64,000 nt of DNA. Origin: Halonotius pteroides. GTDB lineage: Archaea; Halobacteriota; Halobacteria; Halobacteriales; Haloferacaceae. Each line of letters starts with the position of its first letter. Position 1 is the first letter of the stretch. The stretch lies in the NCBI RefSeq assembly GCF_003605635.1, contig NZ_QMDW01000001.1:1-64000 (forward strand). Reading direction: 5' to 3'. Made by a program: the position numbers and the translations under genes. A model generated the notes under the pieces. That model ran no database searches. It was not told where the DNA came from and saw only the letters and a program-made list of their open reading frames with translations. Shown here piece by piece: positions 30,027 through 41,125 of this stretch.

Positions 30027-30206
30027 TCATTGCTCGATTATCTCTCCGTCTCCGACAGCAAGTGTCCCCTCAAGCTCAGTAAGGAGTTCTTCGCCTTCCT
30101 CACGGAGTTCTTGTGCCTCCTCAAGTGACACCTCGCCGTTTTCAAGTTGTTCAATGATCGCTTCAACTCGGTCTACCTTGTCGCTGACTGGAGTATTCTC
30201 GCTCAT
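30027..30206 (-). CDS. xseB: Exonuclease VII small subunit
   Basis: A 59-residue helical hairpin: VDRVEAIIEQLENGEVSLEE then AQELREEGEELLTELEG, the expected XseB pattern. Its ATG overlaps the TGA of xseA (ATGA), so the two are translationally coupled. The small subunit binds the large subunit's coiled coil in the bacterial enzyme. Confidence 0.88.
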   Translation of the reverse strand: MSENTPVSDKVDRVEAIIEQLENGEVSLEEAQELREEGEELLTELEGTLAVGDGEIIEQ

Positions 30207-31441
30207 GATGTTAGATAGAGGGTGGTAAGGCCAAGCACGATCACCACGAGTACAGCGATGATGATCTTGTAGCGTCGCTGCTGTCTGGCCATCTTCGCCC
30301 TGATTTCACTCTTTGCCTCGTCACGCACTGCTTCGACTGTTTCTTCAAGTTCCTCTTCATGTTCCTTCTCCTGTTCAAGGGTTCGGTAGCCGGTGTCCAA
30401 CCGGTTCCGCAATTCGAGCAGCTTTGCCTCAACGTGGCGATCAGCAGCATTCGCGAGTGAGGCTTCTAACTCGTGTAGCCGACCGGCAACCACGCTTTGG
30501 TAGGCGTTATTGAGCGTGGTCTTTGAGGCTGTGAGTTTGGTGTCGACAGTACCCTGGTATGCCGTATCGAGTCGCTCCGCAAGCCGCGTTCGCTTCTGAT
30601 CGAGATCAGCTCGCTTCGGGACGACCTCGCCAGCATGCGTTGGTGTCATAAACCGATAATCAGCCACCTCGTCGGCGAGCGTCTGATCATCCTCATGACC
30701 GATGCCCACCGCTGTCGGGGTATCAGTGTTAGCGACGACCCGACAGAGCGGCATTTCGTTGAAGATCCGGAGCGTCTTGTCTGCACCACCGCCACGGGTG
30801 ACAACGATCACATCAACGGCTGCATCCTCGTCGAAGGTTGCAACACCGCTCATCAGCGCTTGGAGTGCATTCGGGCCTTGGACACTGGCGTCGTTGATCT
30901 TGATATCGACTTGCGGATACCGATCATGGATTGCGGTGACAGCATCAATCCGTGCGTCGCTATCGGCTGATGTGACAAGGCCGACTGTCGTTGGTAGCTC
31001 CGGGAGTGGCTGTTTTTGCTCGTCGTCAAGTAGGCCGTCACCGGCGAGTTTCTCCTTGTTTTCAGCGTAAACTTGACTGTACTCGCTTTTACCCATATTG
31101 ACGACATCCTCGACAATGAGAGAGCACGACCCCTGTGGCTCGTAATAAGAGAGCTCGCCGCGAACAGCGACGTGCATCTCTTCATCAGGTTTTGTGTTCA
31201 ACCCCTTGTATCTGAACCCAAAAACAACACAGTGAATAGATGCATCGCCTGAAACGAGATCGAAGTGGAGGTGGCCGTTAGCCGATCGACAATCTGACAC
31301 ATCGCCGATGACATAGTCATGCACAAGCTCTTGATTCTCATCAATGACGGCGGCTATCTCGTCGTTGAGTGTGGCTACGGTGACGACATCATCGCTGTCA
31401 AGTTCAACCGGCCCGGCCGCCGATTCATCTGCTTTTGCCAT
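30203..31441 (-). CDS. xseA: Exonuclease VII large subunit with C-terminal membrane helix
   Basis: A 412-residue subunit. The N-terminal OB fold (VIGDVSDCRSANGHLHFDLV) is followed by the catalytic domain (VGLVTSADSDARIDAVTAIH, VIVVTRGGGA, VGIGHEDDQTLADEVADYRF) and a long coiled coil. The chain ends in a hydrophobic segment, IIIAVLVVIVLGLTTLYL, which ordinary XseA lacks. The start at 31441 (MAKADESAAG) is chosen because upstream residues are unlike the family. Role: degradation of single-stranded DNA. Confidence 0.88.
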   Translation of the reverse strand: MAKADESAAGPVELDSDDVVTVATLNDEIAAVIDENQELVHDYVIGDVSDCRSANGHLHFDLVSGDASIHCVVFGFRYKGLNTKPDEEMHVAVRGELSYYEPQGSCSLIVEDVVNMGKSEYSQVYAENKEKLAGDGLLDDEQKQPLPELPTTVGLVTSADSDARIDAVTAIHDRYPQVDIKINDASVQGPNALQALMSGVATFDEDAAVDVIVVTRGGGADKTLRIFNEMPLCRVVANTDTPTAVGIGHEDDQTLADEVADYRFMTPTHAGEVVPKRADLDQKRTRLAERLDTAYQGTVDTKLTASKTTLNNAYQSVVAGRLHELEASLANAADRHVEAKLLELRNRLDTGYRTLEQEKEHEEELEETVEAVRDEAKSEIRAKMARQQRRYKIIIAVLVVIVLGLTTLYLTS

Positions 31442-31594
31442 CCACTTTGTGGTACGCTTGATACCATCAAAAAGCTGTTCAGGTTTGTCTACGACATCCT
31501 TCGCGTCGCCAACGACGCAGCTTCCCACGCACGGGGAATCCAGCCTGGTAGATTTCAATCCGAGTAGGCCACCATGGTCTGTATATCACGGGCC

Positions 31595-31680: not shown

Positions 31681-32370
31681 TCACGAGAATGTTGGCCGTT
31701 CTGCGTACTTAATCGGATCTTGTGTACCAGCATTGCGGAACGCTTCAAGCCGAAACGCGCACGCATCACATGTACCGCATGCCGGCTCGTTGTCTCGATA
31801 ACATGACCACGTGATTTCGTAGGGGACATCAAGCTCAAGTCCACGCTCAGCAATTTCTGTTTTCGACCACTCAACGAACGGAGCCATCAGATCGATGTCC
31901 GTCTCTGGTTTCGTCCCGAGATCAATCACGTTCTGGAACGCCTCGAAAAACTCTGGACGGCAGTCTGGATATCCAGAGAAGTCCTCTGTGTGTGCTCCAA
32001 TGAACAACGCCGATGAGTCAGTCGCTTCAGCGTACGATGTTGCCATCGACAACAGGTTCGAATTCCGGAACGGAACGTACGATGTCGGTATCTCGTCACT
32101 ATCTAAATCTGCATCAGCCACATCCATCTCATCATCTGTGAGACTCGATTCCCCGATTTGGGCTAAATGCTCTGTTTCAATATGCAGGGAGTCGACTGCA
32201 TTGACTTCGTCGGCGAGTGCTTTTGCGCACTCGTATTCTTTATTTTCAGTCCGCTGCCCGTACGATGTATGCAGGAAGTAGGGCTCGTAGCCCTGATCCA
32301 TCGCTTCGTACACAGCGGTTGCACTATCCATTCCTCCGGATACCAGAATGACTGCACTTTTGTTGCTCAT
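31681..32370 (-). CDS. queC: 7-cyano-7-deazaguanine synthase
   Basis: Last enzyme of preQ0 formation: converts 7-carboxy-7-deazaguanine to preQ0 with ATP and ammonia. The PP-loop is ILVSGGMDSATAVYEA, and the zinc motif CYRDNEPACGTCDAC lies near the C-terminus. In haloarchaea preQ0 feeds archaeosine in tRNA. It is 112 bases downstream of queE and in the same direction. Confidence 0.95.
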   Translation of the reverse strand: MSNKSAVILVSGGMDSATAVYEAMDQGYEPYFLHTSYGQRTENKEYECAKALADEVNAVDSLHIETEHLAQIGESSLTDDEMDVADADLDSDEIPTSYVPFRNSNLLSMATSYAEATDSSALFIGAHTEDFSGYPDCRPEFFEAFQNVIDLGTKPETDIDLMAPFVEWSKTEIAERGLELDVPYEITWSCYRDNEPACGTCDACAFRLEAFRNAGTQDPIKYAERPTFS

Positions 32371-32482
32371 TGTCGCTCAATTTTGTCGGACGTGTCGTTT
32401 GTTTGTTCTCTATGTGGGCTCTGACATCCACACTCCCCACTCTTTACAGTACTCTCTCGGCTGTGGCGTCTCCATTTGCTGG

Positions 32483-33250
32483 TCACGTTCCTGGTGCGTC
32501 GTTCCACAGATCAACATGGAGTCGTGGTGTGTACCGGTAGCCGTACTCCATAGCAAGCTCAGCCACCTCGCTGCGCGTTCCATCGAGTTGTTCACGAGTC
32601 ATTCCCTCCGGCATCAACAATACATCATCATCTGCTACTGTGGTCGTTGTTGTCGCTCGTATCCGATCAACCACGTCCGTAATCTCCTGCATATCCTCCT
32701 CTCCGGTCACGACGAATTTCAGTTGTGTCTCGTAGTCGTCGATCAATTGCGACAGTGCCTCCATATCGATCCGGTCTTGCTCGTGTTGGCCTTCCCACTC
32801 GCCATCGCCTTTCGGATCTCGATCAGGTGTCGGTGTACTGCTCGCCAGCTTCGGGCTAATACTGGCGAGGTCGATGGGTGCATCCCGGTAAATCGTTCCG
32901 TTCGTCTCCACTGTGGTATGATATCCATCTGCTGTTAGTTGTTCTATGAGGGCTACTGACTCCTCGTGAATGAGTGGCTCTCCACCGGTGAGCACCACAT
33001 GAGTAGCCTGCTTATGAGAGTGGACTTCCTCCAAAATTGAGTCCACATCTCGCCACGCCCCAGTCGGCTCCCAAGACGTGTGATACGAATCACAGAACCA
33101 GCATCGTAGGTTACATCCTGAGGTTCGTATGAAGACTGTTGGTACGCCTGCTAAGGTACCTTCCCCCTGCAACGAATAGAACAACTCGTTGATCGGGAGG
33201 TCGCCATCAGTGTCAGGTTCGGTCTCTTCTACTTCAGCGTTGACAGGCAT
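32483..33250 (-). CDS. queE: 7-carboxy-7-deazaguanine synthase (radical SAM)
   Basis: Radical SAM enzyme of 255 residues. The [4Fe-4S] motif is SGCNLRCWFCDSYHTSW, preceded by FYSLQGEGTLAGVPTVFIRT, and the SAM-binding motif is LTGGEPL. It converts carboxytetrahydropterin to 7-carboxy-7-deazaguanine. The ATG at 33250 follows the queD stop by two bases. Confidence 0.95.
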   Translation of the reverse strand: MPVNAEVEETEPDTDGDLPINELFYSLQGEGTLAGVPTVFIRTSGCNLRCWFCDSYHTSWEPTGAWRDVDSILEEVHSHKQATHVVLTGGEPLIHEESVALIEQLTADGYHTTVETNGTIYRDAPIDLASISPKLASSTPTPDRDPKGDGEWEGQHEQDRIDMEALSQLIDDYETQLKFVVTGEEDMQEITDVVDRIRATTTTTVADDDVLLMPEGMTREQLDGTRSEVAELAMEYGYRYTPRLHVDLWNDAPGT

Positions 33251-33252
33251 GA

Positions 33253-33717
33253 TTACGGGGCCGCACACAGTTCACCGGTCTCACGAACAGACACGGCGAT
33301 CTCTGAGACAGTTTCTGGCAGTGCATCGGACAGTTCCCCCTCAAGCAGCACAGCCATTACCTCTGCTGTGGGTGGATGGTCGATGATAACCAGCGAATCC
33401 TCGTCACCGCTTCGCTGAAATGCCTCAATGAGGGGATCACCTCGTTCTACGAGAAACCGATGATCCCATTCAGATATTACTGAGGTAATATCACCCTTAT
33501 CAACGATCCAGCCTTCCGAAGTCAGTTCGCCAGTCACCGAAACGGTGATCTCGTAGTTATGACCGTGTGGCCTGCTGCATTTTCCTTCGTGGTGAAGTAT
33601 CCGATGCCCTGTACTGATTCGAATGGGCCGATCCTCCCCGACACGCAGTTCTCGTTCACCTGCATCAGCGAGGGTTTCATCATCTGGTGATTGATTACTG
33701 GATAATCCTTGAGACAT
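33253..33717 (-). CDS. queD: 6-carboxytetrahydropterin synthase
   Basis: First dedicated step of the preQ0 pathway, of the PTPS fold, 154 residues. The zinc histidines lie in STGHRILHHEGKCSRPHGHN, with the catalytic Cys in GKCSRPHGH and the later DHRFLVERGDPL. It heads the queD-queE-queC operon. The first ~25 residues are an acidic extension. Confidence 0.93.
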   Translation of the reverse strand: MSQGLSSNQSPDDETLADAGERELRVGEDRPIRISTGHRILHHEGKCSRPHGHNYEITVSVTGELTSEGWIVDKGDITSVISEWDHRFLVERGDPLIEAFQRSGDEDSLVIIDHPPTAEVMAVLLEGELSDALPETVSEIAVSVRETGELCAAP

Positions 33718-36443: not shown

Positions 36444-37346
36444 ATGCGAGTCACTGCCGTTGGAACAAGCGGCGGCCTTCCCACCGCCACCTACGGAACC
36501 AGCTGCGTATACATGGAGCTGTTCGGCGACCGGATTCTCCTTGACTGCGGTGAGGGGACACAGCAACGCCTGATGCGGTACGACTCGTCGCCAAACGTCG
36601 ATGCGATCCTCGTCAGCCACTTTTATGCGGATCACACGCTCGGCATCCCCGGTGTCGTTCAGGCCCTCGAAATGAACGACCGCAAGCGGCCCCTGCGTCT
36701 CTGCGTTCCCGACGGACGGATCCAACGGGCGAACGACCTCGTCGAGGGTGCCTACGGACATCCAACGTACCCGCTCAAAATATGCGGCTACGGCGGCGAC
36801 GAACCGGCGATGTCCACCGACAACTACCGTATCCAGCCGTTCGAAACGGAATATACGGAACACTCCCACGGGTTCGTCGTCGAAGAGACGCCGAAGCGGG
36901 AGTTCCTCGTCGGGAGGGCACAGGATCTCGGCGTCGACCCGGGACCAAAGTACGGGAAACTGCAGAACGGCCACTCCGTCGAGACCGACGACGGGCGGAC
37001 GGTGACACCCAACGACGTGTTATCGGAACCAAAGCCTGGACGGAAAGTGGTGTACACGGGCGATACGAGGCCGATCCCCGGGGTCGTCGACGCGGCGTCC
37101 GACGCCTCGTTGCTCGTCTACAGCGCGATGTTCTCGGACAGCAACGCCGAACGGGCCCGATCGACCGGCCATTCGACGGCAGCGGAGGCCGGACAGGTCG
37201 CCTCGGAATCCGACAGTGACCGGCTCTGGCTGACGCACATCTCCCCGAGACACGAGGGGGAGGAGCCGACGCTCGAATCGGAGGCGGAAGCGGCGTTTGA
37301 CGGAGACGTCGTCGCCGTTCGGGACGGCGAGTCCACGGAGCTGTGA
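36444..37346 (+). CDS. Ribonuclease Z-like MBL protein with altered active site
   Basis: A 300-residue metallo-beta-lactamase protein closest to tRNase Z: VGTSGGLPT, LLDCGEGTQQRLMRYD, VVYTGDTRP, STGHSTAAEAG and LTHISPRH are all present. The zinc motif is SHFYADHTLGIPG, where HxHGDH is expected: position 61 is Tyr instead of His, and 62 is Ala instead of Gly. FETEY (Tyr137) stands where FxTDH carries a zinc His. LLVYSAMF (Tyr226/Ser227) replaces the LVHxATF catalytic motif. Asp207 of YTGD and His265 remain. The frame is intact, so this may be a non-nucleolytic paralogue. Confidence 0.82.
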   Translation: MRVTAVGTSGGLPTATYGTSCVYMELFGDRILLDCGEGTQQRLMRYDSSPNVDAILVSHFYADHTLGIPGVVQALEMNDRKRPLRLCVPDGRIQRANDLVEGAYGHPTYPLKICGYGGDEPAMSTDNYRIQPFETEYTEHSHGFVVEETPKREFLVGRAQDLGVDPGPKYGKLQNGHSVETDDGRTVTPNDVLSEPKPGRKVVYTGDTRPIPGVVDAASDASLLVYSAMFSDSNAERARSTGHSTAAEAGQVASESDSDRLWLTHISPRHEGEEPTLESEAEAAFDGDVVAVRDGESTEL

Positions 37347-38210: not shown

Positions 38211-39344
38211 TCACGGCGTATCGTCCCTCGCTGTGTCGACTTCTTTCGGCCCCCACCTCGGGTCGGCCGGCCCGGTTCCGCCACCGATGTCGTCGACTCG
38301 GCGAGTCAGAGTGTCGGCGGCAGCGGCCGACACCTCAACGCGCACCACGACATCGTCGTCGTATGCGACCTCCCGGACAAGCGCGTCGTCGTGGAGTTCG
38401 GCGACGAGGGCGTGTGTGGCGTCGCCGTACGGCAAGCGCAGGCGATATGCTACCGTATCGAGCGTCCCGAGCACCGTATCTCGGATCTCGTCGATGTCGG
38501 AACACTGCCTGCAGGCGGCGTCGGTTTGGTCGGACAGCGATTCGACGAGCGAGCCGGTTCCTGCTCCAACTCCAACAACGAGGTCGGCCCGCTCTATCGC
38601 TTCGAGGGTTCCGGCGGCGACGGCCTCAACGTACGCTGGCACCGCTCCGTCGCCGGGGATCCCCGGTGTCTCGGTCACCGCAACAGTGTGGGGGCCGATG
38701 TCAGCTGTCGCCGTCTTCGCCCGTGCGGGACGACCGGCGGGTGTCGGCGCATCAGTGCCAGTAAGCGCCGTCCAGCAGTCGGTCGTGGCCGTTCCCGGCC
38801 GCCCGACGAACACGACGTGACCATCGACGTTCCTGTAGCCGTTTGCCACCCGTTCGCCGGCGGCCTGACGGAACCGCTCAAACTGGGCCCGGAGCTCGTC
38901 TCGGCGCCGTTCGAGGTCGGCCCGACGGCCACTTGATCCGCCCGGGCTGCTCGCCGCAGCGTCCCGATCCACCCGCGCCGCGGCAAGCCGCTCAATGCGG
39001 CACTGCCTGAGTTCGAACCGTACGTCTGCGACCCGGTTCGCCCCGCGCAGCCGCTCCCAGACGGCACCCTTCCGGTCTCGAACCGTCGCGGCCGGGAGCC
39101 GCGCCCGCAGATCGAGCATCTGCCCCGGGTGGAGGTCGCCGTCGACGACAATATAGGCGTCCTCCGTCCTCTCGACAACGTCGACAACCTGACCAAGGGT
39201 CGCCGGTGGAAGGTCGTATTTTTTATGCTCCGGCCGGTTCGTGACGACCCGTTTGACGTTCTCGTATCCGCGCGCTGCTACCAGCGCCGGCAGCCCCCGC
39301 GTGATCGCTCCAGTTCGGCTCGCGATCAGTGCTTCCCCATCCAT
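38211..39344 (-). CDS. HflX-like protein lacking a functional GTPase P-loop
   Basis: A 377-residue protein with the HflX layout: an N-terminal subdomain (DLHPGQMLDLRARLP matches the TPGQ motif), a coiled coil (ADLERRRDELRAQFERFRQA), then a GTPase-like domain. The G1 loop reads VVFVGRPGTATTDCW (residues ~178-191) in place of GYTNAGKST, so the P-loop lysine is absent. G3 is VTETPGIPGD, and no NKxD motif is seen. GTP binding as in HflX is unlikely. The frame is complete. Confidence 0.75.
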   Translation of the reverse strand: MDGEALIASRTGAITRGLPALVAARGYENVKRVVTNRPEHKKYDLPPATLGQVVDVVERTEDAYIVVDGDLHPGQMLDLRARLPAATVRDRKGAVWERLRGANRVADVRFELRQCRIERLAAARVDRDAAASSPGGSSGRRADLERRRDELRAQFERFRQAAGERVANGYRNVDGHVVFVGRPGTATTDCWTALTGTDAPTPAGRPARAKTATADIGPHTVAVTETPGIPGDGAVPAYVEAVAAGTLEAIERADLVVGVGAGTGSLVESLSDQTDAACRQCSDIDEIRDTVLGTLDTVAYRLRLPYGDATHALVAELHDDALVREVAYDDDVVVRVEVSAAAADTLTRRVDDIGGGTGPADPRWGPKEVDTARDDTP

Positions 39345-39990: not shown

Positions 39991-41125
39991 GTTTGCCTCT
40001 GGTGCTCTCAGTTGAGAGGTCACAGCTCATTGCTGTTTTGATTGATCGCTGGAGCAGGTCGTCAAGAAACAACTGGTAGTGAGATAGATCAGCGTACTTC
40101 ACTAGCCGAAGCCGGAGCAACGCCTCCAGCCCCTCTGTTGTCCAGCGCATCCACTGGTTCTTACACCGGTTGCTGACTTCCTTCATCAGCCGTTCGACGG
40201 GGTTCGAGGCCCACGGCATCTCGAACCCCTCGATAGCTGCCTCAGCAAATGTCACGATTGACGGCAGCTACGCATAGAGATACCCCGCTGCCGTCTCTGC
40301 TCCGTACTGATCCAACTGCCACGCTGTCTTCTCGATACGGTCGGTCGTTTGCGCGATCCGCTCGCGGATCGCCGCGAACTCCTCGTTCGGACGGTGCTTA
40401 GCGACCGAGTTCTCCAGATGGAACACCTCACCGATTACTTCTGAGACGATCTCGTTACGCTGATTTATTGGAAAGACACCGTCATCCCAGAGATAGTAGT
40501 CCAGTGTTCGACCAACGTGGACAAGGTCAAGTTGGTGATCGTGAGATTCGTCGGTAAAGGCCGTGACAATGCCTCTATCCCCGTCACTGACGACCGTCGC
40601 GTCGTCAGTGACTGCACCCATGTCATCGAGTTCGGCAGCTGTCTTGTTCCAATCACCATTCACCGAGAGATCCAGCAGAGAGCGTGACTTGTCTGCGGTA
40701 TCTTCGCCAAGCGTTGCTTGAATTGAGTGGTACGACCGGTCGTCGTCTTGGCTGTAGCACTTTGTGCCGTCAGGAATGACAGCGTCAGCCTCTGTATCAG
40801 CGACACAGTCTGGAGGAAACTGCTTGAGCTTACCGCCGTATTCTCTGACACGGCGGTTGATGATGGTTGGCGACGGCATCCGTTCGAAGATGCCGTCGTC
40901 GTGATCAGCAGTATCACGGTAGCTGAGCGAGGTGGCGAGATCGACACTAGTGGCTGCGATGTCCTGCTGATAGCGGTTCTGCCCGTCGAAGCTGAGAACA
41001 TCTTCGACGGGCCGGAAGTAACTGGATTCATCGTGGTTAGCAGCAGTATCCTCGACGTAGTGGAGGCTGAACTCGTGATCACCAGCGGTTGTGACAGCTG
41101 TGTGAGGATCGGTGCCACCGTCTGA
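39986..41125 (-). mobile_element. ISH6-like transposase, inactivated
   Basis: On the minus strand, from 41125 downward: DGGTDPHTAVTTAGDHEFSL, VEDVLSFDGQNRYQQDIAA, MPSPTIINRRVREYGGKLKQ, VTDDATVVSDGDRGIV, then a TAG at 40268 where REW-LPSIVTFAE is expected, and EMPWASNPVERLMKEVSNRC to the end at 39986. One nonsense codon and a stop near 41120 that cuts off the N-terminus make it inactive. The terminal inverted repeats were not located. Confidence 0.75.

Follow-up and report, generated by a model that had tools for sequence, protein, structure and literature searches.

The stretch of Halonotius pteroides DNA analysed here (64,000 nucleotides; the window) encodes an RNase Z-derived paralogue, which we call P. 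Its frame runs uninterrupted from ATG to stop. The gene for an HflX-like protein, X, lies 0.87 kb downstream and convergent with it. The features of the two genes are listed here with the evidence for each in brackets.

36444..37346, plus strand: P, 300 aa (family searches, tree, fold match)
36492..36494, plus strand: codon of Tyr17, at the Arg position of the PxKxRN loop (Tyr in 22 of 22 readable paralogues)
36618..36635, plus strand: motif II, HFYADH (His59, Asp63 and His64 kept)
36624..36626, plus strand: codon of Tyr61, TAT, for the second His of motif II (alignment)
36852..36854, plus strand: codon of Tyr137, for the metal-ligand His of motif III (24 of 24 paralogues)
36900..37040, plus strand: flexible arm or exosite with GP motif, residues 153-199, retained (alignment, fold match)
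37062..37064, plus strand: Asp207, bridging metal ligand of motif IV (invariant)
37119..37130, plus strand: YSAM at the HEAT loop, with Tyr226 for the catalytic His (alignment)
37236..37238, plus strand: His265, metal ligand of motif V (invariant)
38211..39344, minus strand: X, HflX-like, 377 aa (co-occurs with P)
38781..38804, minus strand: degenerate P-loop of X, GRPGTATT for GxxxxGK[ST] (alignment)

Several other genes are found nearby. About 3 kb upstream of P, on the minus strand, are queC, queE and queD-like genes (31681-33717, assigned by sequence), which belong to the preQ0/archaeosine pathway. The gene xseA, for the large subunit of exonuclease VII, is at 30203-31558, and xseA also occurs near the paralogue in Haloquadratum (L007 1680-2852, L049 3148-4350, L156 6424-7602). 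A fragment of an ISH6-family transposase (40268-40879; 163.6 bits against an NCBIfam cut-off of 240) lies 0.9 kb from X and is a possible trace of mobility.

Comparison with NCBIfam models and PDB structures places P in the RNase Z family. P scores 249.2 bits against the TIGR02651 equivalog, below its cut-off of 292.95, and all five family members scored fall below that cut-off, at 242-274 bits. Some family members pass the cut-off of NF000801, 'ribonuclease Z'. The translation reads SHFYADH, FETEY, LLVYSAMF, YTGD and LTHIS, exactly as the initial annotation had read the three altered motifs, the YTGD and the final His motif, in an intact frame. That annotation took the three tyrosines to replace histidines at zinc or catalytic positions. 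In an alignment with the characterised tRNase Z structures 1y44 and 2cbn, Tyr61, Tyr137 and Tyr226 do fall at B. subtilis His65, His140 and His247, residues that serve as metal ligands and proton donor (PMC2942849). The annotation had not noticed a fourth replacement, which is fixed: the PxKxRN loop of P reads PTATYG, with Tyr17 at the position of an Arg that canonical haloarchaeal RNase Zs keep (their Asn is variable).

P is an additional gene. A second, canonical rnz was sought in the window genome and is present on a separate contig (C24), 43% identical to P, with motifs HLHGDH, VETDH and LLIHDATF and a TIGR02651 score of 336.8 bits, above the cut-off. Canonical rnz was found in 17 of the 18 genomes that carry the Tyr paralogue, and the one exception is a genome only 52% complete.

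The substitutions in P are not all of one kind. Tyr137 and Tyr226 are invariant in all 24 paralogues, none of which has the motif III or the HEAT histidine of tRNase Z, whereas canonical enzymes have His at these sites in 98-100% of cases (42 haloarchaeal and 14 methanogen RNase Zs). The rest of the HEAT loop has changed too, with Ser or Asn at 227 and Met at 229, so that HDAT becomes YSAM (or YNAM). Tyr17 is found in every paralogue readable there (22 of 22), against Arg in 100% of canonical sequences. Tyr61, by which motif II of P departs from HxHxDH, occurs in only 6 of 23 readable paralogues (the window, G345, G218, G302, G424 and G522). The other 17 keep HxHxDH, and a family-wide loss of that motif is thereby ruled out. 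Tyr61 needs at least three changes on the paralogue tree; together with its presence in six members, this indicates a later, recurrent step. The three changes from His to Tyr thus stand for P itself, and two of them for the whole family, but Tyr61 is no family trait. Around these sites much of the active site is unchanged. His59, Asp63 (the general base), His64, Asp207, His243 and His265 are invariant where readable, as is the HST loop (H243-S244-T245), and the motif IV Asp and motif V His are in place.

Two haloarchaeal families have the Tyr paralogue, at about 24 loci and at 66-74% identity. It was found in 9 of 171 and 9 of 146 genomes of these families, in 6 of 392 genomes sampled by order and in 8 of 392 sampled by class. 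Named records that carry it include Haloquadratum walsbyi J07HQW2, Haloquadratum sp. J07HQX50 and uncultured Halobacteriales. It is missing from the four further genomes sampled in the window's genus. A tree of 77 rows gathers the paralogues in a single clade (SH-aLRT 100), whose stem measures 1.4 changes per site and which is nested within haloarchaeal RNase Z (99); support for the exact point of attachment is weak. The paralogue tree is discordant with genome relatedness, and genomes of families f1 and f4 interleave in it, which suggests lateral transfer. We found no relative of the paralogue on viral contigs when a single protein was used as query, and plasmids gave only canonical-level matches (below 45% identity), with no carriage of the paralogue.

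The paralogue is not a gene in decay. Pairwise dN/dS is 0.07-0.18 in most pairs, with one at 0.34, broadly similar to canonical rnz in matching pairs, and the relatives that have the tyrosines are thus under purifying selection. These low ratios, combined with the invariant residues, point to a specialised protein under functional constraint. The patchy occurrence of the HFY tyrosine across the family is what a decaying gene, or an error of sequencing or assembly, might leave behind. However, separate assemblies agree on these residues, their frames are intact and dN/dS is far below 1; the shared residues and the low ratios rule out decay or assembly error, which we consider barely credible. 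The initial annotation had preferred specialisation to random decay, and that preference is borne out by the canonical rnz in the same genome, by tyrosines common to several genera and by low dN/dS. The relatives of P do not all have normal histidines, since at two of the three sites every paralogue has Tyr. Specialisation rather than decay is strongly supported by these sequence comparisons.

The predicted structure of P, with its arm, is confident (AlphaFold2 with a 48-sequence alignment, pLDDT 91.4). Of the folds compared with it, that of the B. subtilis RNase Z-pre-tRNA complex (4gcw) matches best, at a TM-score of 0.88 over the full length and with the arm aligned. The arm is also the better conserved part of the sequence: mean identity between paralogue and canonical copies is 49% there and only 26-31% over residues 81-152. 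The arm motif reads PGPKYGKLQ, and G167 and P168 are present in 24 of 24 paralogues. From the closeness of the arm and the fold match to 4gcw we infer that P has likely retained tRNA binding. The arm stretch of P also matches NCBIfam PRK14866, presumably a D-aminoacyl-tRNA deacylase, and this match suggests that a tRNA-binding arm is shared between the two. Elsewhere in the window genome, a 685-aa frame contains a short stretch that resembles the RNase Z arm (G000:C30:11533-11670, query residues 154-198; L006, L105).

X co-occurs with P across genomes. Its relationship to HflX is clearest in the fold: the best 14 PDB matches of its predicted structure are all HflX/HflXr or GTPBP6 (TM 0.58-0.64), for a model of moderate quality (pLDDT 72.7). 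Profile evidence is weaker. The HflX model is matched by 3 of 12 X members, the window X gives no match to NCBIfam HflX at E 0.01, and its P-loop stretch aligns only weakly with the GK[ST] loop of Sulfolobus HflX (E 0.12). HflX is a ribosome-splitting GTPase, and the ancestor of X would have bound the large ribosomal subunit. X resembles HflX GTPases in fold and, weakly, in profile, but differs in that the P-loop is replaced; most other X homologues read have a loop of the GRV/GRM/GRI-xAPTT type.

X was found in 15 of 18 paralogue genomes and in 1 of 62 others, in an 80-genome control that is too favourable because it is short of uncultured genomes. In the larger control of 392 genomes, X is present in 5 of 6 carriers and in 13 of 386 others (Fisher p 7e-7). 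The presence of X and P shifts jointly within five genera (g1, g2, g3, g48 and g59). Three paralogue carriers have no detectable X, and two genomes of genus g73 have X but no P. The idea of a strict P-X pair is weakened by the 13 genomes with X and no P. The carriers are mostly uncultured genomes from brine, so shared habitat may inflate the co-occurrence.

Two further components recur near P and X in other genomes: T, a 590-aa protein with no clear domain, and a set that we call MVZ, consisting of a MoxR-type AAA ATPase, a CobT-like VWA protein and a zinc-ribbon protein (ZnR). In Haloquadratum, T and P are neighbouring, convergent genes. In G522, T, P and X share a strand: T lies 64 bp upstream of P, and two genes upstream of T comes X; the row there is X, DUF7113, T, P (the DUF7113 protein at L152 5769-6110, E 1e-42). 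Close homologues of T occur in 10 of 18 carriers and in none of 62 others, besides two at 27-28% identity, and T is absent from the window genome. MVZ adjoins P in G424, and its genes, MoxR and VWA among them, sit beside X in G345 and G218 and beside T in G431, G510 and G514. For any two of P, X, T and MVZ there is at least one genome that links them, and by a simple binomial estimate the chance of such linkage is 0.002 for P-X and 0.0004 for P-T. An immediate neighbourhood conserved in all members is ruled out, as the links join pairs of genes and differ from genome to genome. In the window genome, the 0.88 Mb (29%) that was read contained no recognisable MVZ. Haloarchaeal plasmids and tailed viruses commonly have related VWA genes (31-37% identity), and the linkage of MVZ has to be read against its base rate among haloarchaea. 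The haloviruses HVTV-1, HCTV-1 and HCTV-5 (H1-H8) encode a VWA protein 33-36% identical to the P-linked VWA protein of G424. PADLOC gave no match to P, X, VWA, ZnR or T. T is found in 9 of 11 genomes whose paralogue has His61 and in 1 of 6 with Tyr61 (p 0.03, uncorrected for phylogeny), an association that is a lead only.

We tentatively propose, at a little under an even chance, that the P family is a tRNA-binding RNase Z pseudoenzyme, with cleavage of pre-tRNA trailers lost or almost lost, and acts as part of a module. P would keep the fold, the arm that grips tRNA and the second metal site, and would serve as a subunit that binds tRNA or a tRNA-like acceptor stem. It may work alongside X, an HflX derivative that has lost its GTP-binding loop, with T and the MoxR-AAA/VWA/zinc-ribbon remodelling set joining the two where present. 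P and X would act together close to the tRNA end or the large ribosomal subunit, the places where their ancestors work. From its residues, P plausibly cleaves trailers little or not at all. Several observations count against our proposal. The invariance of the metal-2 ligands and the general base suggests that chemistry has been kept, and a metal site with some hydrolytic activity is possible in P. Further, X is found in some genomes that lack P and is missing from three carriers, the window genome has no T, and the part of it that was read gave no MVZ.

It is for this reason, a catalytic base and one metal site that never vary (H59, D63, H64, D207, H243 and H265 throughout the family), that the strongest rival makes P an active metal hydrolase whose chemistry or substrate has changed. 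It could be a phosphodiesterase with a single metal or with Tyr as a ligand, for example, and its target a nucleotide, an RNA end or a nucleotidylated protein. RNase Z has a reported second activity in protein deAMPylation, and the B. subtilis H65A variant, altered at the site of Tyr61, retains residual RNase activity (PMC12663964). We nevertheless regard this reading as less likely than our proposal, as no member retains either the motif III ligand or the HEAT His, and in characterised tRNase Zs these two motifs serve zinc binding and catalysis (PMC2942849). The retained arm beside an altered active site could also mean that P donates its exosite to canonical RNase Z, presenting tRNA in an ELAC2-like heterodimer. 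In the RNase Z dimer the arm of one subunit serves the other, the ELAC2 N-terminal domain has the same design (PMC12663964), and nearly all carriers have a canonical rnz to partner. However, P is linked to X, T or MVZ and at no locus to rnz, and canonical RNase Z already functions as a homodimer, which makes a heterodimer improbable. Least probable of these readings, and very improbable, is that P continues to process tRNA 3′ ends but has narrowed to certain precursors. The arm and the majority of motifs remain, HxHxDH survives in most members and some pass NF000801, but motif III, HEAT and PxKxRN are all replaced and the five scored members fall short of the TIGR02651 threshold that the canonical copy exceeds.

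Beyond the pseudoenzyme reading of P, the gene set as a whole may be a haloarchaeal multi-protein system, scattered in genomes and laterally moved, that combines a degenerate RNase Z and HflX with a MoxR AAA ATPase, a CobT-like VWA protein, a zinc-ribbon protein and the 590-aa protein. Its targets might be tRNA ends or the large ribosomal subunit, and its setting a stress response, the quality control of ribosomes or viral conflict, a possibility we hold with less conviction than the proposal for P. A literature search of incomplete coverage found no paper on the paralogue, on a connection of it with HflX or MoxR-VWA genes, or on a link between HflX and MoxR-VWA, and the multi-gene module is apparently undescribed. 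If the association of P, X and MoxR-VWA is functional, it would point to an unknown system at the interface of tRNA and ribosome. The 'ribonuclease Z' label that NF000801 gives to some members also means that database entries may be misnamed.

In G424, the P-linked AAA_5/CbbQ_C ATPase and CobT-like VWA protein are of the class that takes in MoxR-VWA remodelling pairs (CobS/CobT, CbbQO, RavA-ViaA) and ternary vWA-MoxR-VMAP conflict systems (PMC7159879). That paper does not use the terms RNase Z, MBL or HflX; here a zinc-ribbon protein, T, X and P accompany MoxR and VWA. P itself resembles canonical short-form RNase Z (TIGR02651) in fold, motif I, the motif IV Asp, the motif V His, the HST loop and the GP arm, and is 41-46% identical to haloarchaeal canonical copies. 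It differs in having Tyr for the motif III His, the HEAT His and the PxKxRN Arg, as well as for the second His of motif II, in scoring below the TIGR02651 cut-off and in being additional to rnz.

Another RNase Z-like protein of haloarchaea is HVO_2763 (NZ) of Haloferax volcanii, a conserved archaeal MBL protein similar to tRNase Z and reported to lack tRNA 3′ processing activity (PMC3296008). P shares its RNase Z-like character and is set apart from it here by that paper's description of HVO_2763. A separate 266-aa MBL gene on contig C115 scores 102.7 bits against TIGR02651. This gene, and not P, may be the counterpart of HVO_2763. A parallel to P is the N-terminal domain of ELAC2, a known pseudo-RNase Z domain (PMC12663964). 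Both have an RNase Z fold and a retained exosite with altered catalytic motifs, while P is a separate 300-aa protein of independent origin, unfused to a catalytic domain and with its metal-2 residues conserved. P offers a clear example, from a prokaryote, of an RNase Z paralogue that stands alone and in which the loss of catalytic histidines is fixed, in parallel to the human ELAC2 pseudo-domain.
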